From positions 1-50,863 of IMG/VR virus record IMGVR_UViG_3300021061_000022: a DNA stretch of 50,863 nt. One strand, written 5' to 3'. Numbering within the stretch: position 1 is the first letter of the stretch; every line of letters begins with the position of its first letter. Source of the DNA: a virus. Positions 8,009 through 35,644 of this stretch are shown here, piece by piece. The position numbers and the translations under genes are program-made. The notes under the pieces are model-generated. The model searched no databases, was not told the DNA's origin, and saw only the letters and a list, made by a program, of their open reading frames with translations.

Positions 8009-8346
8009 TCCTGGCCCGCCTTGACGACCTCCGGGAGCGTGGTGAGCGCCGCGTCCAGCCCCGCCAGCCAGCCGGCGCAGTTGGCGATGTCCTCCCGGAG
8101 GAAGCGCATCTCGTCCGCGGTGACGCCCCGCCCGCGCGTCAGCCGGTGCTCGAGCCCCTTGAGCCGGCCCTGCTCACGTTCGCGGAGTTTGGTCAGCGCG
8201 TCCTGGAGGATGGCGAAGCCCGGGTGATTGATCGCCTGCGCGGCGCGCTCGGCCGAAGCCCGCTGCTCGTTCGTGACGGGCGGGCGTGGGGCTGTGGGCT
8301 GCTTCTCGTCGAGGTACTTCTGCCAGTCGTCCAGCGTGATCGTCAT
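8005..8346 (-). CDS. Helical hypothetical protein
   Basis: Encodes 113 residues from an ATG that overlaps the O-antigen ligase-like gene's stop (ATGA). A conserved-looking opening (ITLDDWQKYLDEKQP) is followed by two long helices (AILQDALTKLREREQGRL, ADEMRFLREDIANCAGWL). Short helical proteins of this type sit near portal genes in podovirus-like genomes. Function unknown. Confidence 0.75.
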   Translation of the reverse strand: MTITLDDWQKYLDEKQPTAPRPPVTNEQRASAERAAQAINHPGFAILQDALTKLREREQGRLKGLEHRLTRGRGVTADEMRFLREDIANCAGWLAGLDAALTTLPEVVKAGQE

Positions 8347-9404: not shown

Positions 9405-9410
9405 ATACTC

Positions 9411-9689
9411 GTGGGCGTGAAGTGCCGCTTCTGCCAAGACGACGAGGGCCACCCGATCACCGCGGCCTGCTTCAACGCCCAAGCCGAGTCGGTGCTGGCG
9501 ACGCTCTCCGTCGTCGCGCTGGCACCGATGAACGCGGTTCCGCTGTCGTGGTCCGTGATGGCAGATTCAGGGGAGTCGGGGCGCTGGATCGAGTTCCACG
9601 AGGGGCGGATCATCGACGCCCAGCCGCACGATGACGGCGTAATCGTCACGGTCGAGAACGGCAAGCAGTACATCATCCGTCCGACGTAG
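9411..9689 (+). CDS. Plus-strand small protein with CxxC, likely accessory (moron) gene
   Basis: Encodes 92 residues (GTG at 9411; a second GTG at 9417 is equally possible). It starts with KCRFCQDDEGHPITAACF, a possible zinc site, and ends with a strand-rich unit (WIEFHEGRIIDAQPHDDGV, then VTVENGKQYIIRP). It is one of only four plus-strand genes, divergent from the O-antigen ligase-like gene and overlapping the portal gene end by 17 bases. TATACT at 9403-9408 could be a -10 box for a leaderless message. Isolated reversed genes like this are often expressed in lysogens. Confidence 0.66.
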   Translation: MGVKCRFCQDDEGHPITAACFNAQAESVLATLSVVALAPMNAVPLSWSVMADSGESGRWIEFHEGRIIDAQPHDDGVIVTVENGKQYIIRPT

Positions 9690-12060
9690 CCCCCGCCAGT
9701 TCATCACTCGACGGGGCTTCCGTCTGCATCCCCGGCGCCTCTCCCGCGGACGGCTGGCTCCCCTGCCCCTGTCCGCTGTTGCCGAGCGACGACGAGAAGT
9801 CGGCCGCCGCCTGCGCGAGCTGCTGCGCCTTCATCTGCTCCTGAATCAGGATGCTCACCTGCTGGAGATAGGCACGGAACAGCCCGGCCTGCGGCGCCGT
9901 CAGGAATCCGAAGTTGTCCGACTGCATGAACTTCTGAAGGTTCATCAGGTGCTCGGTCGGCTCCTCAAGCGGCGTGCCCACCGGCAGGGCGTTCGTCTCC
10001 ATGATCGCGAGGATGGCCTCCTCGGCGGTGATCTTCGGCCCCGAGGTCACGCCGAGCGGCTTCTTGATGTACCGCGAGGGATCGAGCGTCGCCGCTTTGA
10101 TGAGGTCGGTCTGCCAGTTGTAGTACTGCTCGGCGCTGACCGTGCCGACCTGGAAGGACAGCGGGTTGAACACCGCCATGCCGATCGCCTGGAGCGCCTG
10201 CTGCACGAGCCCCTTGTTCGTGTTCAGCAGCGTCGGCTGCCAGTCCCACGCGATCGGGATGGCGACGTCGAGCGGGTCCGCGATCTCGCGATACGGGTCC
10301 TCGTGCTCCTCCAGTTGCCCCGAGGCGAGGTACTGCTTGCGCTTCTTGAGGAACCGCCCGTTCAGGAGGTGGAACTGCTCCCACACCTGCCGGAGCCCCA
10401 TGAACAGCCTGCGAAGAATTTGCTCCGGCATCGCCGCGCCCTGCTGGAGGATCGCCATCGTCGTCCCGAGCGTGCGGAGCGCCGACGCCTTGCCCTGCGG
10501 CACCTGACCACGCTGGATCGGGCCGATCTGCGTCACGTCGTCCATGAACTGCTTGGCGAGGCCCACCATGTTGAACCCGAACGTCTGGTCCGCGTGCGGC
10601 AGCGTCGGGAAGAACACGTCCTGCTGCGGGTTGTCGATCGGGTAGAGATCGCCCGGCCACAGCTTGATCGCTTCGGGCTTCATGCCACTGGACGCCCGGT
10701 AGAACCCGAACGGACGGTTGGCGAGGTCGCCGTTGTCCGTCATCTGGTTCAACATGACGTGCAGGAAGTCGTGCAGCCCCTCCATCACCTCGAGGAGCGA
10801 GATGCCGTAGATCTGGCCCTCGACGGGGATGTAACACGTATGCGACATGGGCCGGGTCAGCGGGATGCCGGGGGAGAGCTCCGTCAGGTACTTCGCGCGG
10901 ATCAGGGTTTCGGATTCGCGGAGCACCCAGAAGATCACTTCTTCCTGGAGGCCGTCGTCATCGACGTCCCATCCCCCGAACCACTGGATCAGCGTGAGCC
11001 ACTGCTTGTCGTAGTCGTGGGGGCCGGACGGCTGGATGCCGGCGGCGTCTTCCTTCTGCTGCTTCGGCCCGTCGTCCGTCTCCCCGCCGTCGGTCGGGAC
11101 GCGCCCCTCGGCCGCCGCCAGGATCTGCTTCCAGTCGTCGTCGGTGATGAGGTCGTAGATGCCGTCTTTCTCACCGCGCTTGAGTTCATCGACGGTGATG
11201 CGGCTCATGCGCGCGACCCACGGGGCGCCCTTCGGATTGTGCGGCGTGACGGGCTGCGGGTTCTCGCAGCGCACCGGCACCACGACGTCCTCGAGGTCGT
11301 CCACGATGGCGGTGGGGCCATCGAACGTCGTCGCGTCCCAGACGGCGACGAGCTCCAGGCGTTCCTCGTCCTTCTCCCAGACGGTGAAGTCCACTTCCGT
11401 CCGCTGCTGGTCGTCGTTGACGAAGGCGCCCGCCCAGACGGTGCCGTGTTCGTTCTTCGCGACGAGTTCGGTGACCTGGGGGAACAGGTCAGGGATCGCC
11501 ACGGCCATCGATTCGATCAGCGGCCGGTCGTCCTTGGGCAGGACCCGAACGTCGGTGAGTCGCGAAGAATGCTTGACCCACGGCTGGAAGCTGAAGACCG
11601 CGGGGTCCTTGCAGAACTGCGCGATGTACTTCTGGATGAACTGCTCGCCGTTGCCTTCCACGAACAGCTGGTAGTCGATCAGCTGATTGGCGGCCTCGGC
11701 CTTGTCGCGGAGATCCTTGCGCACCTTCGGCTCGAACGGCGGGCGAATGCCCATGACGGCGTTGAACAGGCCGGCCTCGACGCGCAGCTCGTTCGCCATC
11801 ATCGCGGGATAGTGGTGATTGGAGCAGCCGTCCCACGGCGGGGACTCGCGCTGCGTCCAGCCGCGGAACTTGGCGTAGCGTTCCATGCGCTTGTCGAGCC
11901 ACGTCTGGCGCTCGCCCATCGCGTCGTCCACTCGCTCGATGACGCCCTGCACGACGTCGGTGGCGTCGACCGACATGCGACGCTTGCGAAGCCTCGGGCC
12001 GGGCTCGGGCTTCTCGTCGGGAGCAGCGAGGTTCAGCGGGTTCGCGTAGTCGTCGGCCAT
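9673..12060 (-). CDS. Portal protein
   Basis: Encodes 795 residues. Podovirus-type portal features: an acidic/basic N-terminus, SPPWDGCSNHHYPAMMANEL, long helical middle with GQIYGISLLEVMEGLHDFLH, DLYPIDNPQQDVFFP, and a Gln-rich C-terminus (QQVSILIQEQMKAQQLAQ). Length is typical of the 700-800-residue portals of this group. It forms the twelve-fold ring for DNA entry at the head vertex and works with the large terminase 900 bases upstream. ATG overlaps the previous stop as TGATG. Confidence 0.9.
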   Translation of the reverse strand: MADDYANPLNLAAPDEKPEPGPRLRKRRMSVDATDVVQGVIERVDDAMGERQTWLDKRMERYAKFRGWTQRESPPWDGCSNHHYPAMMANELRVEAGLFNAVMGIRPPFEPKVRKDLRDKAEAANQLIDYQLFVEGNGEQFIQKYIAQFCKDPAVFSFQPWVKHSSRLTDVRVLPKDDRPLIESMAVAIPDLFPQVTELVAKNEHGTVWAGAFVNDDQQRTEVDFTVWEKDEERLELVAVWDATTFDGPTAIVDDLEDVVVPVRCENPQPVTPHNPKGAPWVARMSRITVDELKRGEKDGIYDLITDDDWKQILAAAEGRVPTDGGETDDGPKQQKEDAAGIQPSGPHDYDKQWLTLIQWFGGWDVDDDGLQEEVIFWVLRESETLIRAKYLTELSPGIPLTRPMSHTCYIPVEGQIYGISLLEVMEGLHDFLHVMLNQMTDNGDLANRPFGFYRASSGMKPEAIKLWPGDLYPIDNPQQDVFFPTLPHADQTFGFNMVGLAKQFMDDVTQIGPIQRGQVPQGKASALRTLGTTMAILQQGAAMPEQILRRLFMGLRQVWEQFHLLNGRFLKKRKQYLASGQLEEHEDPYREIADPLDVAIPIAWDWQPTLLNTNKGLVQQALQAIGMAVFNPLSFQVGTVSAEQYYNWQTDLIKAATLDPSRYIKKPLGVTSGPKITAEEAILAIMETNALPVGTPLEEPTEHLMNLQKFMQSDNFGFLTAPQAGLFRAYLQQVSILIQEQMKAQQLAQAAADFSSSLGNSGQGQGSQPSAGEAPGMQTEAPSSDELAGATSDG

Positions 12061-12663: not shown

Positions 12664-12971
12664 CGGAACACCCTCGTCATGGCTTCTCCGCAGCAGGACG
12701 GCGTGTGCCCCGTGAACGGCGGGCTGCCATCGCACGGCTCGAACCCGTTGAAGTAATGGCCGGGCTGGTGCCGGAACTCGTGGAGGATGACGCGGTAGGC
12801 GCGCCCCCCACACTTCCGGCACGTCAGCCACGCATCGTGTTCGTGCCGCCCGGAACAGTGCTGGGCGCACGTAGGACCTTCCGGCGGCAGCGGAAGCGTG
12901 CGCGGCGCCGTCCCGGGCAGCACGAGGCGTTGCTTCTGCGCGAAGATCTGGTCCCAGCGTTCGTCGCTCAT
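12660..12971 (-). CDS. Zinc-binding protein downstream of large terminase
   Basis: Encodes 103 residues with several Cys/His clusters: CAQHCSGRHEHD, TCRKCGGRAYRV, HEFRHQPGHYF and PSCCGEAM. The spacing allows two zinc sites. The ATG overlaps the terminase stop (ATGA), so its dose is tied to terminase. HEFRH fits HExxH, but its position among many Cys makes a structural site more likely. Confidence 0.75.
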   Translation of the reverse strand: MSDERWDQIFAQKQRLVLPGTAPRTLPLPPEGPTCAQHCSGRHEHDAWLTCRKCGGRAYRVILHEFRHQPGHYFNGFEPCDGSPPFTGHTPSCCGEAMTRVFR

Positions 12972-14662
12972 CCGCGTCTCCGATGCTGGAACACCATCCC
13001 GCGCGTGTAGCCGGTGAACGACGGCCGGTCGAGCGCGAAGTAGCGGACGAGATCCGGGAAGTCCTTGTGACGGTCCCTAACCTTCTCCTTCGGCTCCTTG
13101 TCGCCGCCGCGCGTCCACTCGTCCCACGTCCAGTGGGTCATCCCGTAGATGAACTTCGGGCACGTGTTGAACACCGCGAACCGTGGACGGCGGGTCCGGG
13201 GATCGGGACGCAGGAGTTCGTTGACCTGCGAGATGCCGGCGTTGATCTCGTCGTTCGCGAGATCGCAGCGGATGCCTTCTTGGTCGTACTCCTTGCGGAT
13301 CGTCCACCCGCGCTGCATCCGGTCGTTCGTCTCGGTGGCGATGTTCGGGTCCATCAACCGCTTCACCGGACGCATCCGATGGCGCTCCTCGAAGGAGCGG
13401 ATTTCGCGCGCGACGTCCTTCGCGGTGCCCGTCGCCTCGAGCTCCCCGACCATGAACACGTCGTCTGACGGCGCCACCGCGAACCAGCCGATCGCGTCTG
13501 CCTTTCGAGGATGCGGGTCGATCACCATGACGACGGGCCAGCCGGCGGGAATCGGGAACGGCTCGATCACGTGCGAGAACTGCGAGAGATCGTCGCCCTT
13601 GCACGTCGGGCACGACCCGTCGATGCCGAGCACGCGCTTCTGGCAGCGGTAGCACCACGTCGCGTAGGTGCGCTCGAACATCGAGTACACGACGCCCGAG
13701 AGATGGATGAACCGGCCGTAGAGTCGAACGGCCCGCTGCTCGTCGGTCAGTCGTTCCGCGATCGCCTGCACGTCCTCCGGAGAGAGGATCGTGTTGCGCT
13801 CGGTGAACAACTGGATGGTGTCGATCTCCGGGTGCTGGTTCGGCCCCGGGAGTCCTGGTTCATAGATCTCGTCGAAGAACCACGCGGCATCGACCTGGGC
13901 GGACCCGGCTTCGTCCGGGGGCGTGAACGCCGTGTAGAGCTGGCCGCGGACGTCGAGCGTGCGTAGCCGGTTTTCCCGGTAGATGTCCGAGGGTGGCAAT
14001 TCGTCGTGGCCGACCCAGTGCAGCGAGGACCCCGCGAACGCCGAGAGGTCCTGGTCGTAGGACATCAGCTGAATCGTGGACGTGCCGCTGACGGAGTTGA
14101 TGGAGCCGTCCGCCCCCCGCCAGTACGAGTCCACGCTGACGTGGAGGGTCCGATAGCGTTCGGAGTACGCCTTTTCCCACGACCCGCCGGCCAGACAGTG
14201 CCGGGGAATCCATCCCCAGTGACCGCGGCCGTCGTTCGGGTCGCCGACGCCGTTCCACTGATCCCAGCGCAGCTTCGGCTTGATGACGGGCTCGATCGTG
14301 TCCGTCAGCGAGTTGCACACGAGGCGGGCGCGGATCGGGGCGCGGATCTTCTCGCGCGGATACGTCCCCATCAGAGACACCGGGATGTGGCCCGTCGCCT
14401 GAATCGCCAGTTCCGCCAGCATCGTGTCCGTCTTGCTCGAGCGGTTGCCGCCGACGATGGCGACCTCGCGCTTCATGCTCGTGTGCGCCTTGAGCGCGTC
14501 GGGATTGCGGACCTGGTAGTAGGCGAGCTGCGTGCCCTTGCGGTCCTCCTGCAAGGCCTGGGTGGTCTGCATCAGGACCGTGCGGAACCACGCCGGATTC
14601 TCCCGCGCCCTCGCGATCAGCTCGTCCTGCGAGAGCTCGGAGAGATCCTTGAGGTCGATCAC
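12968..14662 (-). CDS. Terminase large subunit with inserted zinc ribbon
   Basis: Encodes 564 residues from a GTG (GTGA overlap). Walker A is GGNRSSKT (71-78), Walker B is WVGHDE (216-221). A zinc ribbon (CYRC ... CPTC, about residues 325-345) lies between ATPase and nuclease parts, then VVMVIDPHPRKADA begins the RNase H-like nuclease, with MDPNIATETNDRM and DFPDLVRYFALDRP near the end. It is the motor that cuts and pumps DNA into the head with the small subunit two genes upstream. The zinc insertion fits the genome's wealth of zinc ribbons. Confidence 0.92.
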   Translation of the reverse strand: MIDLKDLSELSQDELIARARENPAWFRTVLMQTTQALQEDRKGTQLAYYQVRNPDALKAHTSMKREVAIVGGNRSSKTDTMLAELAIQATGHIPVSLMGTYPREKIRAPIRARLVCNSLTDTIEPVIKPKLRWDQWNGVGDPNDGRGHWGWIPRHCLAGGSWEKAYSERYRTLHVSVDSYWRGADGSINSVSGTSTIQLMSYDQDLSAFAGSSLHWVGHDELPPSDIYRENRLRTLDVRGQLYTAFTPPDEAGSAQVDAAWFFDEIYEPGLPGPNQHPEIDTIQLFTERNTILSPEDVQAIAERLTDEQRAVRLYGRFIHLSGVVYSMFERTYATWCYRCQKRVLGIDGSCPTCKGDDLSQFSHVIEPFPIPAGWPVVMVIDPHPRKADAIGWFAVAPSDDVFMVGELEATGTAKDVAREIRSFEERHRMRPVKRLMDPNIATETNDRMQRGWTIRKEYDQEGIRCDLANDEINAGISQVNELLRPDPRTRRPRFAVFNTCPKFIYGMTHWTWDEWTRGGDKEPKEKVRDRHKDFPDLVRYFALDRPSFTGYTRGMVFQHRRRG

Positions 14663-15936
14663 GCGGGCTGGTGCTTCAACTGTCCGAGGCGGCGACAGAC
14701 CGCCATCCCGACCCGCATCAGCCCCTTGCCGACCACCGAGTCCCCGTGGGCCATCTCGCGCGTCCACGGCTCCGCCACGACCCACACGAGGCGGGTGACG
14801 ACCGAGGACCGGCGCATCGCGCGCACGACGGTCGGCGCCCAGCGGTAGTAGCCGGCGAGGACGACGGGATCGACCGTGCGGCCGAACGCCTCGTCCGCCT
14901 TCCACGTCGCCTCATCGAGGTAGCCCTGGCGGTAGAGCTCCGTGCAGATGACGGTGGCCCCGCCGGCACCTCCCCCTCCGCCGCCCGCGGCCCCCCCGTC
15001 GCTCTCGTCGCCGCTGCCGCTCGGGCCCGCCGTCCCGGTCCCCGAAGACGTCCCACCGCCATCCGTTTCGTCGCCGCTCGGTGCCGGCCCGGTGCCGGTC
15101 GGCCCCATCCCCGTGTCTTCGCTGAAGGTGACCGGCGCGGTGGTCGTCGTGTCCGGCATCCCGCCGCGGACCCCTGACGAGAACAAGCCCGGCTGACCCT
15201 GAAGGCCCGTCACGGCGGTGGTCGGCGCCGCGGTGAACGACGGGTTCGACAGATCCCCGAAGGTCGGCGACGGGATGCCGGACTCACTCAGCGGCCCCGT
15301 CCCGAGCGCCCCGACCGCGATCCCGCTGCTGTTCGGCGTCGAGGTGGTCGTCGGAGACGTCGTGCCGCTCAGGAACCCCTCCAGCCCGTTCACGACGCCT
15401 TGCAGCCCGCTCACCGTCGCCTGGGACGCCGGGGGGGCCGGCCCGAACGCCCCGAGGCCGAAGTTCGCCAGGCTCGCGGCCAGCCCCAGTCCCGGCACCG
15501 CGGCGTTCGCGATCGTCCCGACGAGGCCGTTCGCCACCGTCGAGGGAATGCCGAACTGCGCGCCGAGCTGGGCCGCCGGGGTCGCGGACGCGATCGTCCC
15601 CAGATCCCCGAGCAGACCGCCGGAGTTCCCGTGCCCGCCGGAGACCCCGGAGCCCGCGCCCGGCGCCGATGGAGCGCCCGCTTCTCCGGTTGGCCCGCCG
15701 GGGGTCCCTGGCGAATTGATCTGCCCGGTTACGGATTCGGCGTTGCCGATCGCCCCCTCAAAGAACCCGATGCCGGGGTTGTACGGGGCCGGGGACGCCG
15801 CCGGCATGAACGTGGACGGCTGCCCCGGAAACGCCGTGTCCGACCCCTGGACGCCCGGCAGCGTCACCGGCTGGCCTGACGGACGCCCGGGATAGGCAAT
15901 GTCCAGCCCGGCCAGACTCAGCGGAGCCGTCAGCAT
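14659..15936 (-). CDS. Low-complexity protein with C-terminal conserved domain, between terminase genes
   Basis: Encodes 425 residues. About 320 residues are Gly/Pro/Ser/Thr/Ala-rich, with collagen-like stretches (NSPGTPGG, GDESDGGAAGGGGGG). The last 105 residues form a compact domain starting ICTELYRQGYLDEATWKADE and containing LAGYYRWAPTVVRAMRRS, a pattern I associate with phage proteins that follow long flexible linkers. A helix-turn region near 120-170 (AAQLGAQFGIPSTVANGLV) is more hydrophobic. Sits between small and large terminase; virion-structural role suspected, not proven. Confidence 0.8.
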   Translation of the reverse strand: MLTAPLSLAGLDIAYPGRPSGQPVTLPGVQGSDTAFPGQPSTFMPAASPAPYNPGIGFFEGAIGNAESVTGQINSPGTPGGPTGEAGAPSAPGAGSGVSGGHGNSGGLLGDLGTIASATPAAQLGAQFGIPSTVANGLVGTIANAAVPGLGLAASLANFGLGAFGPAPPASQATVSGLQGVVNGLEGFLSGTTSPTTTSTPNSSGIAVGALGTGPLSESGIPSPTFGDLSNPSFTAAPTTAVTGLQGQPGLFSSGVRGGMPDTTTTAPVTFSEDTGMGPTGTGPAPSGDETDGGGTSSGTGTAGPSGSGDESDGGAAGGGGGGAGGATVICTELYRQGYLDEATWKADEAFGRTVDPVVLAGYYRWAPTVVRAMRRSSVVTRLVWVVAEPWTREMAHGDSVVGKGLMRVGMAVCRRLGQLKHQPA

Positions 15937-16382
15937 CAGCGCGCCTCCTTCGGCATCTCCGCCTCGATGATCCGGGCCACCTGCCCGAGCCGTGATACCA
16001 GCTCCGGCATCGACACCCGGACCTCGTGGAGGTTCGCCACCAACTGCGTCGGCTGCCCGCTCAGGAGCTGCACCTTCTCCGTCGAGATCCCCATCGTGAT
16101 CGCCAGCGCCTGCCGGTCCTTCGGGCTCAGATCCGCCTTCCGCATCCCGTCATAGGCCCCGAAGAACGTGTCATGCCACGCCGCCAGCATCTCCGGCACG
16201 TGCGACTTCTTCAGCGCGTCGATCTCCGGTCCCAGATGCGAGAGGATGTCCCGCACCGTCCGGCGCGGAACCCCCGTCTCGGAGGCAATGGACGGCGTAC
16301 AGGCCTCTCCCCGAAGCGCCAGGTTCCGCGCCGCCGCTTCCGCTACGGCCCGGACCTGTTCCGGCTGAACCCGGGTAGCCAC
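15936..16382 (-). CDS. Terminase small subunit (candidate)
   Basis: Encodes 148 residues from GTG. The N-terminal half holds a helix-turn-helix-like segment (ACTPSIASETGVPRRTVRDIL), the rest is helical (RQALAITMGISTEKVQLLSG, VSRLGQVARIIEAEMP). Size, position two genes before the large subunit and the DNA-binding start fit the recognition subunit. No Shine-Dalgarno is visible; a promoter -10 box lies six bases before the start, so the message may be leaderless. Confidence 0.72.
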   Translation of the reverse strand: MATRVQPEQVRAVAEAAARNLALRGEACTPSIASETGVPRRTVRDILSHLGPEIDALKKSHVPEMLAAWHDTFFGAYDGMRKADLSPKDRQALAITMGISTEKVQLLSGQPTQLVANLHEVRVSMPELVSRLGQVARIIEAEMPKEAR

Positions 16383-16388
16383 GGCCGA

Positions 16389-16422
16389 ATCGTATCACGC
16401 TATTCCCGACCGGAAATAGTGC
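16389..16422 (-). promoter_or_regulatory. Candidate late promoter with palindromic operator
   Basis: A -10-like TACGAT (16389-16394) lies six bases before the small terminase start. The palindrome ATTTCCGGTCGGGAAT (16402-16417) covers the expected -35 position. The whole 25-base block 16398-16422 recurs at 17132-17156. No good -35 is present, as expected for activator-dependent phage late promoters; repression is equally possible. Confidence 0.5.
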
Positions 16423-17121: not shown

Positions 17122-17156
17122 ATCATCTTGTCGCAAATCCCGACCGGAAATGGTGC
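17122..17156 (-). promoter_or_regulatory. Second copy of the palindromic late-promoter-like block
   Basis: The block 17132-17156 matches 16398-16422 at 22 of 25 positions and includes ATTTCCGGTCGGGATT. A GATGAT at 17122-17127 sits at nearly the same distance from the palindrome as TACGAT does in the other copy. A transcript from here would read the 16432-16875 gene with a leader of about 240 bases. Confidence 0.45.
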
Positions 17157-17203: not shown

Positions 17204-17350
17204 CTAGAATCGGAGCCTGAAGCGTCGCCAGCGATACAGCGACATGAGCCGTCGCCAGAACCCTGCATGGAGGAGCGGGGAGCGGAGGCAGGTTTCGCAG
17301 TGCCAGCCGTTGCCGCAGCCCGGGGAGATGTAGCAGTCGCAGGCGCTCAT
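17204..17350 (-). CDS. Cys-rich 48-residue protein, last early gene
   Basis: A 48-codon frame (MSACDCYISPGCGNGWHCET to start) with six Cys and one His in 21 residues, then an Arg/aromatic basic tail (FWRRLMSLYRWRRFRLRF). ATGA-coupled to a ten-codon frame (17347-17379) that in turn is ATGA-coupled to the sugar-transferase-like gene. It ends the early operon. A membrane-associating basic tail is possible. Confidence 0.62.
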   Translation of the reverse strand: MSACDCYISPGCGNGWHCETCLRSPLLHAGFWRRLMSLYRWRRFRLRF

Positions 17351-17375: not shown

Positions 17376-18359
17376 TCATCGTCCGCGCTCCAGTAGGTCC
17401 AAGAGGCGGGCTGAGGCGTTCGAGGGGCCGAGGTAGCGGGCGCGGTAGATGCCTAAGGCGTCGGGATCTATGGCGAATGGCTCGGGGTTGGTGACGAGCG
17501 GGCGGATGACGCCGGGCCAGTAGCCAAAGGTATACGGCATCCCGGAGTAGCACTCGTGCGTCGTCCTGTGGCCGTCCAGATGCGGCTGGGGCAGGGTCAC
17601 GGAATACTGAGGCACGCCAGCGTGCGCGAGCTCCATCGCGGCGCCTGACTGGAAGTGGACGGCGACGGTCGCTGACCGGATGAGCCGGAGAGACATCGGT
17701 GGGTAGAGTTCCGTGTCCTCGTACACGGCATCAGCGAGCTGTCTCACATACGCAGGGTCCGCGTGCTTACGCCTCGTCTTGATGACGAGGCGTAACTTCT
17801 CCGTGTCACACCAGCGCCGCAATCTCGTCAGGAGCCGGCGATAGCCCGCGTAGCGGTACACGAAGCGTCGCCAGCCGCCGACTCGGAGCTTGCACGAGAA
17901 CAGCAGGAGCATGGGTGAGGACTCACTGGGCAGCGGGCGGGCGGCGGCCCAGGCGTCGAGCTGCGTTGAGCCGAGCGTCGGGGCCCACCAGTCAGACCGA
18001 TGGCGGTCGGCCAGTCGGTATTGATAATCCGACACGTAGCATTGCAGCATCCCGGGGATGACGGGCGCATTCGCCTGCTCCCAGCTGTAATCCAAGCTCA
18101 CGAGGCGGGCTGAGGACCAGGCGCTCACATCGTGGGTGTGCAACGTGGGGCCGATGAAGGCATCGGCCGGGGACGGGTCGGTGATAACCGTCGTCGACCA
18201 CCAGCGGTGCGAGACGTCAGCGTAACGGGCCTGCTCCCCCGGCTTGCGGTCGCGGGTCCAGTACAACAGGACCGTGTGCTTGCGGCGTAACGCTTCCTCG
18301 ATGACGGGGCCGATGACCTTGAAGTAGCCGATCCGTGCCGCCGGGAAGGCGAGGATCAC
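17376..18359 (-). CDS. GT-B-like glycosyl/glycerophosphotransferase-type protein
   Basis: Encodes 327 residues from a GTG that overlaps the upstream TAG by one base. Opens VILAFPAARIGYFKVIGPVI, an N-terminal Rossmann-like unit typical of GT-B and CDP-glycerol-type transferases. The second half has LRLVIKTRRKHADPAYV, a PPMSLRLIRSATVAVHFQSG segment and GAAMELAHAGVPQYSV, which parallels the 'S-S-E-A-x-x-x-G-x-P' loop that binds nucleotide-sugar in these folds. It probably transfers a sugar or polyol phosphate to a surface polymer; exact donor unknown. Part of a three-gene glycan cluster. Confidence 0.72.
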   Translation of the reverse strand: MILAFPAARIGYFKVIGPVIEEALRRKHTVLLYWTRDRKPGEQARYADVSHRWWSTTVITDPSPADAFIGPTLHTHDVSAWSSARLVSLDYSWEQANAPVIPGMLQCYVSDYQYRLADRHRSDWWAPTLGSTQLDAWAAARPLPSESSPMLLLFSCKLRVGGWRRFVYRYAGYRRLLTRLRRWCDTEKLRLVIKTRRKHADPAYVRQLADAVYEDTELYPPMSLRLIRSATVAVHFQSGAAMELAHAGVPQYSVTLPQPHLDGHRTTHECYSGMPYTFGYWPGVIRPLVTNPEPFAIDPDALGIYRARYLGPSNASARLLDLLERGR

Positions 18360-18472
18360 TAGCGGCGCGCACGGAGGGTGCGCTTGAACGCCCTCTCTGC
18401 CACCCACACCGCCAGACACATGCCGATCAGCGAGCCGACCACGAGCCCGAGCAGCGTCATCAGTAGTGTCAT
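18359..18472 (-). CDS. 37-residue membrane peptide
   Basis: A 37-codon frame beginning MTLLMTLLGLVVGSLIGMC, one transmembrane helix, then a basic tail (ERAFKRTLRARR). ATGA-coupled upstream and overlapping the next GTG by one base. Likely inner-membrane; unknown function. Confidence 0.55.
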   Translation of the reverse strand: MTLLMTLLGLVVGSLIGMCLAVWVAERAFKRTLRARR

Positions 18473-18606
18473 CGACTCGTCAGCGCCATGATCAGCACAC
18501 CGGCCAGCCCACAAATCGCGGCGGTTATAAAGAACGCCGTCGAGAGCCTCATTCCACCTGCCTCCTCAAATGCCACCCCTATGCCGTCTCGCCGCCACTC
18601 GGTCAC
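18469..18606 (-). CDS. Small membrane protein
   Basis: A 45-codon frame from GTG (GTGA overlap). An internal ATG at about 18552 follows GGAGG and would give only the hydrophobic part (MRLSTAFFITAAICGLAGVL to the end). One transmembrane segment. Both starts are possible. Confidence 0.5.
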   Translation of the reverse strand: MTEWRRDGIGVAFEEAGGMRLSTAFFITAAICGLAGVLIMALTSR

Positions 18607-18776
18607 GACTCCCGCTTCTTGTACTTCATCCCCCGATGCGCCCGACCACCGCGGCGCCCGCCTCGGCGCAGCTTCGCCTTGATGTACTCTTGCGCCTCGG
18701 CCTTGCTCATGCCGGTGCGCTTGCACAGATTCCAGATCTGCCAGCCCTCGAAACTCGGGAAGTCGAAGGCGGCCAT
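18603..18776 (-). CDS. 57-residue basic protein
   Basis: Opens MAAFDFPSFEGWQIWNLCKR, then a helix (SKAEAQEYIKAKL) and a Gly/Arg/Lys-rich tail (RRGGRRGGRAHRG). ATG overlaps the previous stop as TGATG. The RGG-like tail suggests nucleic-acid binding. Confidence 0.6.
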   Translation of the reverse strand: MAAFDFPSFEGWQIWNLCKRTGMSKAEAQEYIKAKLRRGGRRGGRAHRGMKYKKRES

Positions 18777-18964
18777 CAGCCGTAGCTCACGATGAGTTCG
18801 GGTGAGGTCGAGGACAGGTGCGCGTCTAGGGACGCGATCGTGGCGTCCCGTTGCTCGGTCGTCGCCCCGTTCAGACCCATTCCGTCAGCCTCCACGAAGT
18901 CAATCCAACGGCAGCGGCGGGGAGCCCCAGTGTTCCAGCCGGCGCGGCGCAGCAGGGTCCTCAT
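18776..18964 (-). CDS. 62-residue hypothetical protein
   Basis: Starts MRTLLRRAGWNTGAPRRCRW, followed by DFVEADGMGLNGATTEQRD and a short amphipathic end. ATGA overlap with the fusion glycosyltransferase gene. No motif recognised. Confidence 0.62.
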   Translation of the reverse strand: MRTLLRRAGWNTGAPRRCRWIDFVEADGMGLNGATTEQRDATIASLDAHLSSTSPELIVSYG

Positions 18965-20283
18965 CGGTCCAGCACGGTCCGCATGGCGGTGATCCACGAG
19001 TCGAGACGCTGGCGCTGCGCGCGGGAGCCGGCCTTGAACGCGGACGCGCCGATCGTCCCGCCGCCGAGATGGACGTAGAACGGAATCGCCCGGTCATCGC
19101 ACGCAACGTCGCAGGTATGCCCTCTGAAGGCGGCCTGATACAGCATGGTCGCCCGCCAGCCTGGTTCAACACTCTCGGCAACGTCGTACTCCGGCATCTT
19201 CGGCGCGAGATTCATCGTGGCAAACGTAGCCACATCGAACAGCGTCCCGGCGGAATGACCGCGCTGGCTCCGCCGGCTCACGATCGCCGCCGCGGGCAAT
19301 GGCTGCCGCAGGAGATAGGACAGCCAGCCGGCGCGGACGGGCAGCGCGTCGTCGTGCATGATGAAAACGTGCGAATATCCCGCAGCCCCGGCCCGATCGA
19401 GCGCGCCGCGCAGCATGCGGAGCGCGAGCGCGTTAGCCTCGCCGCCGCGTTCGTCCCACGGCCCGTGATCCAGCAGGAACACGTCGTGGGGGACGTCCTG
19501 CGTGAACCGCGCTATCGCATCGCGGGCGAGGTTCGCCAGCGCGCGCTCGCCTGAAGACGGGATCAGGATGGCGACACGCCTCGCCGCGGCCTTGATTTGC
19601 AGCGCCTCCAGCATGGCCGTAAGCGTGTCGTTCATCGCCACGTCGCACGCGCGGCCGGCAGCCGCAGCGGCCCTGGCGGCCGTCCCGAAGGATGCAGAGG
19701 TCGCGGCCGTGGCCGCGGCCGACGTGACGGCGGCGTTAATGGCCATGAAGACGGCGAGGGCGGGGTCAGGCGAGGTGACCACGTTCGCCGCCGCGATGGC
19801 CGCGTGAGCGGTTGCCGACCAGTAGCGTTCATAAAACGTCCTCCGTGCGGCCCACGCTCCGTGGGCCGCCGCGTCGAGATCCACCCGACTAGCCTCGCCA
19901 TGCCGGTACGCCTCCGCGGCCCGCAACACCTCATACGCGCGTCGGTCCACCGTGAGGCCGCGCGCCGCAGCCCGGTCCAGCGCCTGCGTCCCCACCACCA
20001 GCGCGAACGCGCGCAGCGTATCCGTGCAGTCGGCGGCCCAGAGCACCCGGCGCTCGCTCGCGCACACCTTGTCCTCGTCGCGCTCGATCGCCCCTGACAG
20101 TTCCACGCGGGACACGACGCACGGCATTCCGGGCGGCGCATAGCGCAGCGCATCCAGGGCGCGCTCGCTGGCGTGTAGACCGCGCGCGCCCAAGGCTAGG
20201 GGCGGCAGCACGGTGTACGTAGCGACGTCGAGCGGCTGGCCATCGCGGAGTTTCCAGTTCGCGGCGAAATGCCAGCCGATCAT
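18961..20283 (-). CDS. Fusion: phage GLHAS-type domain plus GT-A-like glycosyltransferase
   Basis: Encodes 440 residues. Residues 1-150 resemble a phage-restricted domain (WHFAANWKLRDGQPL ... ARGLHASERALDALRYAP ... VSRVELSGAI ... ASERRVLWAADCT), close in style to DUF7666-like proteins. An Ala-rich helical linker (about 150-230) follows. Residues 235-440 look like a GT-A family 2-type transferase: VAILIPSSGERALANLARDA, a helix, HVFIMHDDALPVRAGWLSYL with HDD in the DxD position, and a late GYxx-like acceptor loop. ATGA-coupled to the GT4 gene upstream. I infer a sugar transfer to host surface glycan. The fusion is unusual. Confidence 0.77.
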   Translation of the reverse strand: MIGWHFAANWKLRDGQPLDVATYTVLPPLALGARGLHASERALDALRYAPPGMPCVVSRVELSGAIERDEDKVCASERRVLWAADCTDTLRAFALVVGTQALDRAAARGLTVDRRAYEVLRAAEAYRHGEASRVDLDAAAHGAWAARRTFYERYWSATAHAAIAAANVVTSPDPALAVFMAINAAVTSAAATAATSASFGTAARAAAAAGRACDVAMNDTLTAMLEALQIKAAARRVAILIPSSGERALANLARDAIARFTQDVPHDVFLLDHGPWDERGGEANALALRMLRGALDRAGAAGYSHVFIMHDDALPVRAGWLSYLLRQPLPAAAIVSRRSQRGHSAGTLFDVATFATMNLAPKMPEYDVAESVEPGWRATMLYQAAFRGHTCDVACDDRAIPFYVHLGGGTIGASAFKAGSRAQRQRLDSWITAMRTVLDR

Positions 20284-21353
20284 CCGACGAGCTCCGTGTA
20301 GACCGCCATCGTCCCGCGCACGCACCGCTCCCACCGGAAGTGGCGGTCGATCCGCTCGCGGGCCGCCTCGCCGAACAGGCGCCGCACCGGAGCGTGGTCG
20401 ATCAGGAGTCGCAGCGCACGCACATAGTCGTCCTTCGTCCGGCAGACGAATCCCGCGTCGCCGACGAGCTCCGGTAGTGACCCCGCGTCCGAGGTCACAA
20501 CCGGCAGCCCGGAGGACATGGCTTCCCCGACCGCTAGGCCGAAACCCTCCATCGACGACGGGAACACGAAGATGTCCGCGCGCTGATACCACGCCGGCTT
20601 GTCCGCCTCCGGGATGTACCCGCTGCACGAGAAACCTTGCGCCTCGAGCATGGCGCGGTCCGGGCCGTCGCCCGCGATCACGAGCGACGCGCTCGGGCGC
20701 TCGACCGCGCGCCACACGTCGAGAAGCAGGCCTAGGTTCTTTCTCGGCTTCAACCCGCCGAGGAACAGGACGCGGACTTTTCCGTCATGCGGGACCTGCC
20801 GCGGCGTGAAGCGGCGATCGATCCCGTAAGGAACGACCCGCACGTGATCCGTCCTGAACCCTTCCGCCGCCATCTGGCGCCGAGCGAACTCGCTGCCGAC
20901 GATCACCCGGTCCACCAAGCGGACGACTTGCCGCTCGACCGGCCACGGCCCCGCGTCAAGGTGGTGGTGATGGGCCACGATGGGAACGGACCACCCATAG
21001 CGGCGCTTCGCGATCAAGCACGCCGGCCCCATGAACTTGAGGCTGTGGACGCGGAGCACATCGAACGGGTGGAGATGCCGGAGGGCCCGGGGAACGACGA
21101 ACGGGGCGATCGTCCAGTGCAGTCCTCGCGCAACCGGAAATCGCGTCACAGCCCGCCCGAGGCTCGCAGGATGCGGCTTCCCGTGGGCCAGCAGGATCTT
21201 CTGCTGGGCTGGCAGGCGCGTCAGCAGATCGACCTCGTAGCGTTCGCCCCCGGAGTTCGTTTCCGGGTCGAGACCACAGTGGGGGGAACAGACGACTATC
21301 AGGGGGGTCCCTCCGGCCGTCCGCCGCGCCCGTCGTCGTCTTCGTCCGTCCAC
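20280..21353 (-). CDS. GT4-family glycosyltransferase
   Basis: Encodes up to 357 residues. Classic GT-B retaining transferase signs: SPHCGLDPETNSGGERYEVD at the acceptor side, VIVGSEFARRQMA, VVPYGIDRRFTP, LFLGGLKPRKNLGLLLDV, VIAGDGPDRAML, and the donor EGFGLAVGEAMSSGLPVV (E269 and E277) binding nucleotide-sugar. GT4 enzymes build LPS and capsule chains at the cytoplasmic face. Start is uncertain: GTG at 21353 lacks a ribosome site, while a CTG at 21302 has GGAGGG six bases upstream and a four-base CTGA overlap. Middle gene of the glycan cluster. Confidence 0.88.
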   Translation of the reverse strand: MDGRRRRRARRTAGGTPLIVVCSPHCGLDPETNSGGERYEVDLLTRLPAQQKILLAHGKPHPASLGRAVTRFPVARGLHWTIAPFVVPRALRHLHPFDVLRVHSLKFMGPACLIAKRRYGWSVPIVAHHHHLDAGPWPVERQVVRLVDRVIVGSEFARRQMAAEGFRTDHVRVVPYGIDRRFTPRQVPHDGKVRVLFLGGLKPRKNLGLLLDVWRAVERPSASLVIAGDGPDRAMLEAQGFSCSGYIPEADKPAWYQRADIFVFPSSMEGFGLAVGEAMSSGLPVVTSDAGSLPELVGDAGFVCRTKDDYVRALRLLIDHAPVRRLFGEAARERIDRHFRWERCVRGTMAVYTELVG

Positions 21354-22389: not shown

Positions 22390-22598
22390 CGTCGGGCGCC
22401 CTCGACGGGCGGGGTGTCGTGCCTCAGCACGCACCGCTGGCCGACCTCGGCGTGCGCTCGCGCGGCTCGGAAATCGAACACGTTGAGGGACGCCAGCACG
22501 AGGTCAAAGTCCTTCGCCGCCTGCCGCAGCGCGCTTCGCAGCGTCTCGGCGCACGCCCCGCACAGGCTTCCGCTCCCTAGATCACACCAGCTACACAT
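22386..22598 (-). CDS. Zinc-ribbon small protein
   Basis: Encodes 70 residues. Opens MCSWCDLGSGSLCGACAETL: two CxxC pairs nine residues apart, then a long helix (RSALRQAAKDFDLVLASL). Ends PPVEGARR from the shared hairpin repeat. Overlaps the RuvC-like gene by eight bases. Confidence 0.74.
   Translation of the reverse strand: MCSWCDLGSGSLCGACAETLRSALRQAAKDFDLVLASLNVFDFRAARAHAEVGQRCVLRHDTPPVEGARR
22394..22411. repeat. Early-operon hairpin repeat
   Basis: Exact copy of GGGCGCCCTCGACGGGCG, spanning the 3' end of the zinc-ribbon gene just before the next start. Confidence 0.8.
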
Positions 22599-23106
22599 GG
22601 GGAGTCTCCTTGGCGCCCTCGACGGGCGTACCCGCAGCCTTCGGGAGCAGTTCGGCCAGCGCGTAGCGGAGCAGGCACACCGCGTCCACCTCGTTGTCGT
22701 CGTACTCGCGCTTCCCGAGCCATCCTCGAGCTATGGCAGACTCGGTCATAGCGAACTTGTCGCCGCGGCCTGAGCCCGTCGCGAACTTCTTGAGCGTGGC
22801 CGAATGCACAGCGGCGTGCTCGATCTCCCACTCAGCGCAAAACTCCTGCACGCGGGTCGCGAACCCCGCCGCCACCTCGGTCGCGGCACCGCCGCGATGG
22901 TGCGTCTGCTCGTACACGACGAGATTGAACGAACGGCCCAACGACAGACGGTTCACCTCGTCCAGCCAGCGGTTGAAGCGCAGGTAGCGCATCCCCGGCG
23001 ACTCGCCACGCTTCACGTCGAACACCTGCACACCCGACGTCATCACCGACCCGACGCGAGTTGCCCAGCCCGTCTTCGTCCCGAGATCCAACGCCAGTAC
23101 GTTCAC
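22591..23106 (-). CDS. RuvC-like Holliday junction resolvase
   Basis: Encodes 171 residues with the RNase H-like fold: LALDLGTKTGWA holds D7, LVVYEQTHH holds E66, and REYDDNEVDAVCLL holds D137 and D141, giving the four acids that bind two Mg ions. HSATLKKFATGSGRGDKFAM resembles the conserved middle of phage crossover junction nucleases. It would cut branched recombination or replication intermediates before packaging, working with the ERF annealing protein encoded 7 kb upstream in the same operon. GTGA overlap. Confidence 0.88.
   Translation of the reverse strand: MNVLALDLGTKTGWATRVGSVMTSGVQVFDVKRGESPGMRYLRFNRWLDEVNRLSLGRSFNLVVYEQTHHRGGAATEVAAGFATRVQEFCAEWEIEHAAVHSATLKKFATGSGRGDKFAMTESAIARGWLGKREYDDNEVDAVCLLRYALAELLPKAAGTPVEGAKETPHV
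22612..22628. repeat. Early-operon hairpin repeat
   Basis: Copy of GGCGCCCTCGACGGGCG near the 3' end of the resolvase gene, encoding the TPVEGA phrase. Confidence 0.78.
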
Positions 23107-23878: not shown

Positions 23879-24305
23879 AGTTCGCGTCTCCCTCGGGTGA
23901 GTTGTTCACTTCGCGCCGCCGGTCCCCGCCGAGGCGGCCACGCCCGTCCTGCACCCCGTACAGCCGGAGGAGCCGCACGAAGTACGTGCGCTGCATCCCG
24001 AGCGATGCGGCCGCGCGCGTGCGATGCCCGTCGTGCGCGGCCAGCGCCTCCGCCAGCAGATCGCGCTTGAAGGCGAGCACCCGGCGCTCGTAGGCGTTGA
24101 TACCAGGCGTCATCAGCGTGATCCGGGGCGTCTGGCGGCGACGAGCTCCGCCGGCCGGCACAGACGCCGCGTGTGGACTCGCCGGGCTGGCGTGGAGGCC
24201 ACTTTTCTTCCGGCCCAATACCCTACTGGCGGGGTCGGGCCGATCGCCCGCCACAGCGCCTTGTAGCTCGTCACACGCGGGGACGGTGGATAACTGGCGT
24301 CTCAC
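23871..24305 (-). CDS. Fis-type helix-turn-helix protein
   Basis: Encodes 144 residues from GTG (GTGA overlap with the methyltransferase stop). The first 75 residues are low in structure; residues 82-125 (AFKRDLLAEALAAHDGHRTRA then ASLGMQRTYFVRLLRLYGV) match the Fis/NtrC C-terminal HTH (HTH_8). It would bind DNA as a dimer. Without an ATPase domain it probably acts as a small regulator or architectural protein. Confidence 0.82.
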   Translation of the reverse strand: MRRQLSTVPACDELQGAVAGDRPDPASRVLGRKKSGLHASPASPHAASVPAGGARRRQTPRITLMTPGINAYERRVLAFKRDLLAEALAAHDGHRTRAAASLGMQRTYFVRLLRLYGVQDGRGRLGGDRRREVNNSPEGDANYA

Positions 24306-25027
24306 GGGCGTCGCTCCGCGACGGGCTCGCCCGCGAACAGGACTTCTTGGCGAAGTCTTTTGACCGCGATCTCGCAGTACCTCGGCTCGATCTCGATCCC
24401 GATGGCGCGCCGGCCGAGGTTCTTGGCGGCGTGCAGGGTCGTGCCCGACCCCGAGAAGGGCTCTAGGATCAGATCGCCGGGACCGCTTTCGCGGATGATC
24501 CGCTCGATGAGCGCAATCGGCTTTTCGGCGGCGTGGCCGTTGGGGCGGGCACTCGCCCACTGAGCGCGCCAGATGTCTGGAAGGCCACGGTTCGGAATCG
24601 CGAAGCCGTCATGCGCGAACAGCGCGACGAGTTCATACGATGGCCGCAGCCCCTGCACGCCGCCGGGGCCGATCCACTCCTTGTCCCACACGAGCAGAGA
24701 TTCGATCGGCCACAGCGCCTCGTAGGCGGCTCTGGCGAGGATCGGGAAGCTGCGCCACGAGTTGAAGATCCACGCCGCGCCTTGCCGTGATTGCGTGAGA
24801 CGGTACGCCTCACGAATCCATGAGGCGTACCACCGCGCCCCGTTCATCAGGTCGCCCCACCCGCCCGCCTTGCCCTCCTGCGCGGTCGATGCGAGGCCGA
24901 AGGAGTACGGCGGGTCCGTGACGACCAGATCGACGCTCGGCAGTAACGGCATGATGTCGAGCGCGTCCCCGCAGTAGAGCGTGATCCCCGGCTCCTCGTG
25001 AAACAGGTAGTCGCGGAGGGACTTCAT
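24302..25027 (-). CDS. DNA methyltransferase (N6-adenine or N4-cytosine, beta class)
   Basis: Encodes 241 residues. Motif IV DPPY lies at 38-41 (VVTDPPYSFG), after LYCGDALDIMPLLP. The S-adenosylmethionine motif I, FSGSGTT (191-197), comes late, which is the beta order. The short target-recognition region lies between (about 60-170). ATGA-coupled to the GcrA-like gene. Likely protects phage DNA from restriction or alters host regulation; without a neighbouring matching nuclease it looks solitary. Confidence 0.92.
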   Translation of the reverse strand: MKSLRDYLFHEEPGITLYCGDALDIMPLLPSVDLVVTDPPYSFGLASTAQEGKAGGWGDLMNGARWYASWIREAYRLTQSRQGAAWIFNSWRSFPILARAAYEALWPIESLLVWDKEWIGPGGVQGLRPSYELVALFAHDGFAIPNRGLPDIWRAQWASARPNGHAAEKPIALIERIIRESGPGDLILEPFSGSGTTLHAAKNLGRRAIGIEIEPRYCEIAVKRLRQEVLFAGEPVAERRP

Positions 25028-25452
25028 GCGAACTGCGTCCGCTTGAAGCTGCCCGCCGCCGTCAGCGAGTGCGCCTCTTTCGCCAGCAGGCTCGGCGTGC
25101 GGGCGCCGCCGGCTCCGCGCCGCGAGCGCATCTCGATCCCGTCCTTCCGCATCCGCGAGACCTGGTGATCGAGCGTCCCCGGCCGCACCTTGAAGTCCCG
25201 GCAGATCGCCGCCACCGCGTCGCCGGCATTCCACCGCTGCGCCAGCAGCGCCGTCCGCTCCTCGGTCCACACGACGCGCCGCCCGATCTTCGCCACCGGC
25301 CCGAGCGGCACCGCCGCCGCAGGCGGCGCCCAGGAAGGCGTGAGGACCGCCGTGACGCTCTTGCCGTGGATGCAACTGACCACCCGGACCTGCTGGTAGC
25401 CGTCCGAGTCCGTCGCTTCGCGGATGATTCCGCAGGCCATGACGTCGTGCAT
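25024..25452 (-). CDS. GcrA-like HTH regulator
   Basis: Encodes 142 residues. Residues 58-105 (VVWTEERTALLAQRWNAGDA followed by VAAICRDFKVRPGTLDHQV) match a GcrA-type opening: W-T-x-E-R, then a helix-turn-helix and a basic patch (RMRKDGIEMRSRR). GcrA of Alphaproteobacteria reads DNA methylation with sigma-70. The gene is directly upstream of, and coupled to, a DNA methyltransferase. The HTH could also be of a generic resolvase type. Confidence 0.72.
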   Translation of the reverse strand: MHDVMACGIIREATDSDGYQQVRVVSCIHGKSVTAVLTPSWAPPAAAVPLGPVAKIGRRVVWTEERTALLAQRWNAGDAVAAICRDFKVRPGTLDHQVSRMRKDGIEMRSRRGAGGARTPSLLAKEAHSLTAAGSFKRTQFA

Positions 25453-25859
25453 CAGGCGCCCTCGACGGGCGAAGAAACGGCGGCGTGTTCACGCTGTGCG
25501 TCGATCAGGCGCTTGGCTTCGTCGAGCGCGGCTTTCGTGCCGACCAGCCAGCCGCCCGCCTCGCGGTACACCATGCAGGCGTGGCCCGCCGGCATATCCG
25601 CGAGCACGATGCCGTCGCCGCGCCAGAACACGGCGTTGCCGAGTCTGAGCAGCGTCGGCTTCGCGTCCTCGCCGTCGTCGTCCTCGTCGAAGCCGGCCGC
25701 CTTAACCAGCGCCGAGTAGATCGCATTCCCGAGCTTCGTGCGCTCCTGCTCGGCTTCCGCGCGCGCCTCGGGACCGAGCCACGAGAACCACTGCGTGACA
25801 ATGTCGAGCGCCGTGTCGTGCAGCGAGTCCATCGCCGCGCGCGCCATCGCGTCGTTCAT
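25452..25859 (-). CDS. Hypothetical protein, acidic middle
   Basis: Encodes 135 residues. GGAGGG eight bases before the ATG at 25859 decides the start; a GTG at 25919 with a GTGA overlap is an alternative. N-terminal helices with WFSWLGPEARAEAEQER, an acidic stretch FDEDDDGEDA, then a strand-rich end (AHACMVYREAGGWLVGTKAAL). Ends SPVEGA from the hairpin repeat. Unknown. Confidence 0.7.
   Translation of the reverse strand: MNDAMARAAMDSLHDTALDIVTQWFSWLGPEARAEAEQERTKLGNAIYSALVKAAGFDEDDDGEDAKPTLLRLGNAVFWRGDGIVLADMPAGHACMVYREAGGWLVGTKAALDEAKRLIDAQREHAAVSSPVEGA
25455..25471. repeat. Early-operon hairpin repeat
   Basis: Copy of GGCGCCCTCGACGGGCG at the extreme 3' end of the 135-residue gene, three bases before its stop. 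Confidence 0.8.
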
Positions 25860-27340: not shown

Positions 27341-27708
27341 TGCGCCTCCCGCGCCGCGAACTTGTTGGCGGCGGTCACGATGCGGAAATCAAATCGCTCG
27401 GCGCCGAGCGGGGTGACGACGAGGCGGCCCGTCGCATAGTCGAAGTCCGTCCGGTCATGGCAGGCACGACAAACGGCCACGAGATTCGACGGGTCGGAGA
27501 GCGGGCCACCAGCCGATCGTTTGACGACGTGATGCGGGTCCACGGCGATCGCACGGCAGCGGCGGCCCTCGAGGACGACTTCGCAGCGGCCGGCGGCCCG
27601 CTGGAACACGAGCGCGACGGCCTGCTTGTAGGGGCGGTCCTGGCGTCTCCGCTTCCGGCTGACCGGACGGAGCGGGCGCCCTCGACGGGCGGGCGCTGCG
27701 CGCCTCAC
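27337..27708 (-). CDS. HNH endonuclease next to broken cytosine methyltransferase
   Basis: Encodes 123 residues from GTG (GTGA). A basic start (RRAAPARRGRPLRPVSRKRR, carrying the hairpin repeat) precedes the core: RCEVVLEGRRCRAIAVDPHH, VVKRSAGG, DPSNLVAVCRACHDRTD. C...C, D-x-H-H, N and CRACH match HNH. The pairing with a methyltransferase gene recalls a restriction-modification-like pair, though phage HNH genes are common alone. Confidence 0.86.
   Translation of the reverse strand: MRRAAPARRGRPLRPVSRKRRRQDRPYKQAVALVFQRAAGRCEVVLEGRRCRAIAVDPHHVVKRSAGGPLSDPSNLVAVCRACHDRTDFDYATGRLVVTPLGAERFDFRIVTAANKFAAREAQ
27674..27691. repeat. Early-operon hairpin repeat
   Basis: Exact copy of GGGCGCCCTCGACGGGCG inside the first codons of the HNH gene, close to the methyltransferase stop. 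Confidence 0.8.
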
Positions 27709-28234
27709 GGATTCGCCTCGAAGAACGCGCGGGCGAAGTTCGGCGGGGTGATCGCGTCCCGCGGGCTGGCGTTCTCCAGCTTCGTCTGCCAGGTGGACGG
27801 CTTCGTGCGGCGCCCGACGGTGTACATCGGCGGCGTGAAGCGGCCCCAGAGGCCGGTCGGCTTCTCTCCCGCGTCGCCGTACTCCCACTGGCGGAACTTC
27901 CACGCGGGCGGGCCGAGATAGCGCCGCAGTTTGTTCATCGGGTTCTCGAGCGCCCACCACACCGGCCGGTAGATCACCACCGCACGCAGGCAGGCATCCA
28001 CGACCGACAGGGCGGCCCGGAGCTCGTCCTCCGTCGGTTCGTAGCGGTTGCGCGCGTACGAGAACACCGTGCAGGGCGGCGCCGCGAGGATGCCGTGGAC
28101 CCGCAGGCGCTCGTACCGCAGCAGGCGAACATCGTTCGGGAGATCGAATCCCCGGACGTCGTACCCCGCCAGCTTGTAGGGTCCGACCACAAGCCCGTCC
28201 CCGCACACAGATCGAGCACCACGCGGTGTCTCAC
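27705..28234 (-). pseudogene. DNA cytosine methyltransferase-like gene with one-base frameshift
   Basis: Frame one starts at a coupled GTG and reads VRHRVVLDLCAGTGLWSDP, a SAM-binding motif I. It is then out of register. The next frame supplies PYKLAGYDVRGFDLP, HGILAAPPCTVFS (motif IV PPC), and VVIYRPVWWALENPMNK, then GLWGRFTPP. One extra C in the run at 28179-28181 (plus-strand G run) would restore a 176-residue protein. Either a sequencing slip, a real pseudogene or a phase-variable run. Confidence 0.85.
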
Positions 28235-29568: not shown

Positions 29569-29759
29569 GCCGCCCCCTCCGAGTCGCTGGACGACTTCTG
29601 GCGGGACTTGTGCGACCGGATGCCCTGTTCCTTGCGGGCCGCCCGTTTCGACGGCTCCACGGACGCGCAGCGGACGCACACGTACCCGGCGGGCCGATAC
29701 GGCAGGCTCGGCCACCGCATCTCGCCGCACGCGGTACAGCGGGTCTCAAACGTCGGCAT
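29565..29759 (-). CDS. Zinc-ribbon small protein downstream of ERF
   Basis: Encodes 64 residues: FETRCTACGEMRWPSLPYRP and VCVRCASV give a zinc ribbon of the 'regulatory protein, FmdB-like' spacing, then a Lys/Arg/Ser tail. TGATG overlap with the ERF stop. Confidence 0.74.
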   Translation of the reverse strand: MPTFETRCTACGEMRWPSLPYRPAGYVCVRCASVEPSKRAARKEQGIRSHKSRQKSSSDSEGAA

Positions 29760-35606: not shown

Positions 35607-35644
35607 GGTACCCCTCTCGCCCGGTTGCCGATTTACCAGCAGGC

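Follow-up and report, generated by a model that had tools for sequence, protein, structure and literature searches.

Phage systems that convert the surface of the host cell are known mostly from phages of enterobacteria and Pseudomonas. The gtrABC operons, as in P22 and Shigella phages, encode the flippase GtrA, the bactoprenol glycosyltransferase GtrB, and the polytopic protein GtrC (PMC3688519). The seroconverting Pseudomonas phage D3 carries a polymerase with a Wzy_C domain and an HX10G motif, an O-acetylase, and a small inhibitor, Iap (PMC4815439, PMC12373910), and small modulators of O-antigen synthesis include Iap and the Gnarl proteins of 40 to 90 amino acids (PMC12373910). Here, we describe a gene cluster on the minus strand, at positions 17376 to 21353, of the uncultured phage record IMGVR_UViG_3300021061_000022, which was analyzed over its whole length of 50,863 bases (the window; G+C content, 68%). 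The cluster comprises one certain glycosyltransferase, one probable one, four tiny genes, and an orphan third large gene, and an enzyme of the Wzy_C family is encoded in a separate operon. We regard this set as a variant of phage glycan cargo and not as a new kind of system, and we put at about one half the probability that this accessory cargo modifies the surface glycan of the host through a new combination of genes.

The gene at 20280 to 21353 (minus strand) encodes a glycosyltransferase of the GT4 family. Its product matched Pfam entries PF00534 (E value, 7e-29), PF13692 (5e-28), and PF13439 (4e-16), far above the curated cut-offs, and both the N-terminal (PF13439) and the C-terminal (PF00534/PF13692) domains of the family are present. 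GT4 enzymes in the PDB matched as well (E value, 3e-15), and an hhalign comparison with 70 GT4 proteins gave a probability of 100. Furthermore, the EX7E donor-site motif reads EGFGLAVGE, and both of its glutamates align with a homologue. Together, these comparisons make the GT4 assignment, which the initial annotation had proposed, certain at the level of sequence. Members of the GT4 family act on glycans, lipids, and small molecules. The closest bacterial GT4 proteins found share 34 to 38% identity with the phage protein over partial segments and indicate no single donor or host. Translation probably begins at a CTG at 21302, which, read by eye, is preceded by GGAGG and overlaps the stop codon of the upstream gene; the alternative GTG at 21353 appears less plausible.

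The adjoining gene (18961 to 20283, minus strand) encodes a 440-amino-acid fusion in which Pfam, PHROG, and hhalign comparisons place DUF7666 at the N terminus and a GT-A-like domain at the C terminus. DUF7666 was recognized above its Pfam cut-off (E value, 1.2e-6). The C-terminal 209 residues matched the glycosyltransferase family PHROG_2456 weakly (E value, 0.003, over 28 residues only), and hhalign against a GT2 profile of 22 proteins aligned 103 co-linear columns with an E value of 0.0015 and a probability of 17%, while shuffled versions in the same comparison gave E values of 0.15 to 0.65. A DD motif, HVFIMHDD, stands after a hydrophobic strand, the arrangement known from GT-A enzymes, and is aligned with the DD of GT2-like proteins from related phages. 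An AlphaFold2 model of the domain, built with three distant relatives, had a predicted local distance difference test score (pLDDT) of 32. The fusion itself and the DD motif agree with the description of this gene as a GT-A-like fusion. The profile matches are weak but consistent, and no Pfam glycosyltransferase family matched the C-terminal domain, which we take to be a probable GT-A enzyme. Both this protein and the GT4 protein look soluble.

Four tiny genes lie between the fusion and the third large gene, as had been annotated, all on the minus strand. The first (18776 to 18964; 62 amino acids) has an ATG overlapping the stop codon of the fusion and a coding score of 0.08 in its best frame; it matched nothing in Pfam or PHROG. 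The second (18603 to 18776; 57 amino acids) scored 0.46, likewise in its best frame. The third (18469 to 18552; 27 amino acids) begins with an ATG after GGAGG, with a GTG at 18606 as an alternative, and the fourth (18359 to 18472; 37 amino acids) has a coding score of 0.20; hydropathy predicts one membrane segment in each of these last two. Their likeness to Iap and the Gnarl proteins is one of size only.

The third large gene (17376 to 18359, minus strand) starts with a GTG that overlaps the stop codon of the fourth tiny gene and encodes a protein of 327 amino acids. Its coding score of 0.18 is the best of the six frames, and since codon statistics favor the annotated frame, it is a real gene. 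The initial annotation had called it a GT-B-like transferase, and this found no support: no search, whether by sequence or by profile, returned a GT-B family match. The protein matched nothing in Pfam, PHROGs, NCBIfam, or the PDB and nothing among phages, plasmids, and viral contigs, and about 660 bacterial genomes returned chance-level fragments only. Comparison by hhalign with GT4 and Epimerase_2 profiles was negative (below 0.5%); Glyphos_transf, Capsule_synth, and similar families were compared by Pfam scan only. A single-sequence AlphaFold2 model had a pLDDT of 32. Judged by eye, the last third of the protein (LIRSATVAVHFQSGAAMELAHAGVP) resembles a GT-B donor half, which is an impression and not evidence. 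With all database and profile tests negative, the GT-B identity is unsupported.

The order, strand, and coordinates of the run agree with the initial annotation: on the minus strand, the GT4 gene is followed by the fusion, the four tiny genes, and the 327-amino-acid gene, with start and stop codons overlapping by a few bases at most junctions. Two of the gene starts changed, that of the GT4 gene, as described above, and that of the third gene, which is most likely the GTG at 18359 and not 18419. Reading frames are intact, and for all three large genes the annotated frame scores best as coding in codon statistics trained on structural and recombination genes. A search of viral contigs gave no homologue of any of the three proteins. 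Within the run, no sigma-70-like promoter was recognized and no convincing terminator was found, the one weak match lying within a gene and such matches being fewer than in shuffled sequences. The run sits at the end of a gene series that includes RuvC; that the operon is an early one, as it had been labeled, is something we infer. The 3' side of the cluster has one tiny open reading frame (17204 to 17350) and some 330 bases without a gene. A sequence search found the 24-base motif CRCYATTTCCGGTCGGGAWTWGCG twice on the minus strand, one (16398 to 16421) just 5' of the gene at 15936 to 16382 and the other (17132 to 17155) in the gap after the cluster. The motif occurs nowhere else in the genome, and two copies arose in 0 of 100 shuffles. 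The pair, close to where the late genes begin, possibly marks a transcription-unit boundary and is a candidate promoter or operator.

A fourth component, a membrane protein of the Wzy_C/O-antigen ligase-polymerase family, is encoded at 8343 to 9482 (minus strand), with its actual start probably near 9410. The Pfam match to PF04932 was weak (E value, 8e-4; 19.6 bits, under the cut-off of 31.7), and the homologue from the related contig L003 gave no Pfam match. In contrast, when this homologue and the window protein were set against 19 proteins from a Wzy_C search of bacterial genomes, hhalign gave a probability of 96.5 (E value, 1e-9; 233 columns), against at most 0.3% in five column-shuffled controls; a few of the 19 may be in the wrong reading frame, which could only weaken the match. 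The HX10G motif reads HNDYLEMFYEYG in the window and HNDYLEAFYENG in L003, and its histidine is H306 in the 379-amino-acid reading of the protein. This histidine is essential in WaaL, and the motif is also present in Wzy-beta of phage D3 (PMC4815439). By these profile and motif comparisons, the protein is a genuine member of the Wzy_C family, for which a polymerase and a ligase role are both possible. In a simple hydropathy scan it has seven hydrophobic segments, and the genome encodes no other clear polytopic membrane protein. The gene is 77 to 80% identical in L002 and L003, similar to the adjoining structural genes, and its ratio of nonsynonymous to synonymous substitution rates (dN/dS) of 0.16 shows purifying selection. 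No counterpart was found in the relatives L102, L007, and L008. Conserved in the two close relatives and lacking a counterpart in these three, the gene is therefore a maintained accessory gene of the sub-lineage. The initial annotation had named it as an O-antigen ligase-like partner of the cluster; family membership stood, while the partnership is qualified by its location in a separate operon.

When compared with the described systems, the locus most resembles the D3 unit, with which it shares a phage-encoded polytopic Wzy_C protein with HX10G, transferase-type partners, and tiny proteins. It differs in that no O-acetylase was found and a GT4 enzyme and a GT-A fusion are present instead, in that the Wzy_C gene stands in the structural operon, apart from the glycosyltransferase genes, and in that conversion is here a prediction. 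Wzy-beta of D3, moreover, has 10 membrane segments (PMC4815439), compared with seven in the protein of the window. The D3 precedent makes the presence of a Wzy_C gene on a phage meaningful. Like gtrABC operons, the cluster consists of phage genes of which three large ones follow one another, at least one of them a transferase; unlike those operons, it has no GtrA flippase and no polytopic GtrC, and its GT4 and GT-A proteins look soluble. Membership in the gtrABC group was rejected, there being no second clear polytopic protein and no gtr-type match among the genes scanned, in agreement with the earlier statement that the gene content differs from that of gtrABC.

Related uncultured phages more distant than L002 and L003 carry other glycan-type genes. 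In L007 (8006 to 9229), L102 (15244 to 16517), and L103 (10597 to 11875), the structural operon includes a GT2-like gene and, after it, a gene for a left-handed beta-helix (hexapeptide) acyltransferase, the two lying between a beta-helix-like gene and the structural gene that comes next. The three GT2-like proteins matched GT2 in hhalign with a probability of 85. A glycosyltransferase with an acyltransferase is a typical pairing in glycan decoration. In the window, synteny with these phages shows that the same late-operon spot is taken by a 2-oxoglutarate (2OG)-Fe(II) oxygenase gene (2718 to 3482, minus strand; PF13640, E value of 3e-18), which is possibly cargo. Glycan-type cargo is thus a recurrent feature of the lineage, and the genes that make it up differ. 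A scan with RuvC for the early regions of relatives returned only distant phages, in which, besides RuvC, methyltransferase-type genes alone were in common.

The position of these genes bears on the principal alternative, in which the glycosyltransferases, and in the relatives the GT2-like enzyme and hexapeptide transferase, decorate structural proteins of the phage; the oxygenase might then hydroxylate the residues that receive the sugars. Both the pair in the relatives and the oxygenase in the window lie inside the structural operon beside the beta-helix-like gene, as virion glycosylation would have it. There is also a precedent for glycans on capsids, since a study of mycobacteriophages describes glycans covalently attached to the major capsid proteins of phages related to one with several putative glycosyltransferases (PMC11256854). 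The mycobacteriophage systems (Che8, Rita) resemble the present case in that the glycosyltransferases are phage encoded and that, in our relatives, one lies in the structural region, and they differ in that the enzymes of the window are encoded upstream, within the early gene series, and that a Wzy_C protein is present. Wzy_C proteins act in the periplasm, so the one encoded here would have no role in decorating virions, and the glycosyltransferase genes of the window stand outside the structural operon, among upstream genes. We consider virion glycosylation rather unlikely.

Two DNA methyltransferase genes in the early run, one of N4/N6 type (24302 to 25492, minus strand) and one matching PHROG_757 (27705 to 28208, minus strand), together with the 2OG-Fe(II) oxygenase, raise the alternative that the glycosyltransferases place sugars on modified bases of the phage genome, as do enzymes of T4-like and other phages. 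Unlike the setting of the T4-type DNA glucosyltransferases, which share with the present enzymes that they are phage encoded, no hydroxymethylated-base pathway was found here: among the genes scanned, none matched a hydroxymethylase, a thymidylate synthase, or a DNA glycosyltransferase family. The oxygenase matches the prolyl-hydroxylase-like PF13640 and gave no Tet/JBP match, and the gene at 24302 encodes a methyltransferase of N4/N6 type. Hypermodification of DNA bases, which the initial annotation had set against a surface function, is accordingly very improbable.

The three large proteins of the cluster have no sequence relation to one another, and the orphan matches nothing. Such a picture would suit separately acquired, unrelated accessory genes, with the GT4 enzyme acting on a lipid or small molecule, the DUF7666-GT-A fusion having another function, the orphan being no transferase, and the Wzy_C protein working independently. 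The cluster and the Wzy_C gene are also in different operons, and L100 and L102 (terminase, 63%) have neither a glycosyltransferase nor a Wzy_C gene at the two places concerned. The tight, overlapping gene arrangement and the recurrence of glycan-type cargo in the lineage nonetheless argue against this account, which we regard as fairly unlikely.

We favor modification of the host surface glycan because the GT4 enzyme is certain, the GT-A enzyme probable, and the Wzy_C gene conserved, and because of the D3 precedent and the glycan cargo of the relatives; the presence of a tyrosine integrase (34554 to 35867) and ERF (29759 to 30847), and the lack of a base-modification pathway among the genes scanned, point the same way. 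We infer substrate, joint action, timing, and effect as follows. The GT4 and GT-A enzymes, expressed from the early operon, would work at the cytoplasmic face and transfer sugars to a lipid-linked or core oligosaccharide, with sugar nucleotides, lipid carrier, and flippase supplied by the host. In the periplasm, the phage Wzy_C protein, expressed alongside the structural genes, or else the host enzyme, would polymerize or ligate the altered glycan. The 327-amino-acid protein may be either a further transferase that has diverged strongly or a partner protein, and the tiny membrane peptides possibly serve as modulators. The receptor would thereby change, which would exclude superinfection or keep new virions from binding to cell debris. 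In a narrower form, which would amount to a new kind of glycan conversion and which we consider quite doubtful, the soluble early enzymes, with the orphan representing a new transferase family, prepare a new repeat unit that Wzy_C, timed with virion assembly, polymerizes or ligates.

Several observations weigh against this explanation. A flippase, an initiating transferase, and sugar-nucleotide genes were not found, and the third gene matches no known family. A distance of 8 kb separates the glycosyltransferases from the Wzy_C gene, which stands in the structural operon, so that any joint action is putative. Lysogenic conversion modules normally have their own promoter, and a position in an early operon is unusual. 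Searches for a host gave no match, so no receptor can be named. No genome with both the cluster and the Wzy_C gene was available for comparison, as L002 and L003 end before the cluster and L100 and L102 are without both; this, and the separation of Wzy_C from the glycosyltransferases, is why our confidence is held at one half. The earlier claim that the set is capable of making a new surface glycan and attaching it thus goes beyond the evidence, all the more since the Wzy_C protein may be a polymerase.

The record has a direct repeat of 132 nucleotides at its termini (1 to 132 and 50732 to 50863; 99% identity) and is therefore best read as a probably complete phage genome of about 50.7 kb. Domain and profile scans recognized a head gene (4667 to 5596), the portal (9673 to 12060), the large terminase (12968 to 14905), a RuvC-like resolvase (22591 to 23106), and tail-type genes (46401 to 50466), in addition to the integrase and ERF. 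The integrase alone suggests a temperate life style; for a repressor, the genes scanned yielded nothing beyond a marginal PHROG match of the gene at 15936 to 16382 (E value, 0.04). Alignment of the portal to genome contigs, in search of a prophage or host, gave no match, nor did a terminase profile run against 398 genomes of one phylum, a search without a positive control. REP-like hairpin sequences (GGCGCCC...GGGCG) occur at 22389, 25449, 27669, 28648, 31329, 32864, 33457, 33998, and 35998, and in the early region several lie where a gene has its 3' end. A 38-nucleotide repeat is present four times (21963, 23267, 31459, and 34156); its first two copies lie inside genes whose proteins have a common AEFI motif and which are possibly paralogous small early proteins.

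The 327-amino-acid protein may represent a new enzyme family, and the fusion of a transferase to DUF7666 provides a hint at the setting in which DUF7666 occurs. Collectively, the Wzy_C, GT4, and DUF7666-GT-A genes, together with the swapped cargo of this uncultured lineage, suggest that environmental phages remodel glycans repeatedly and in diverse ways.

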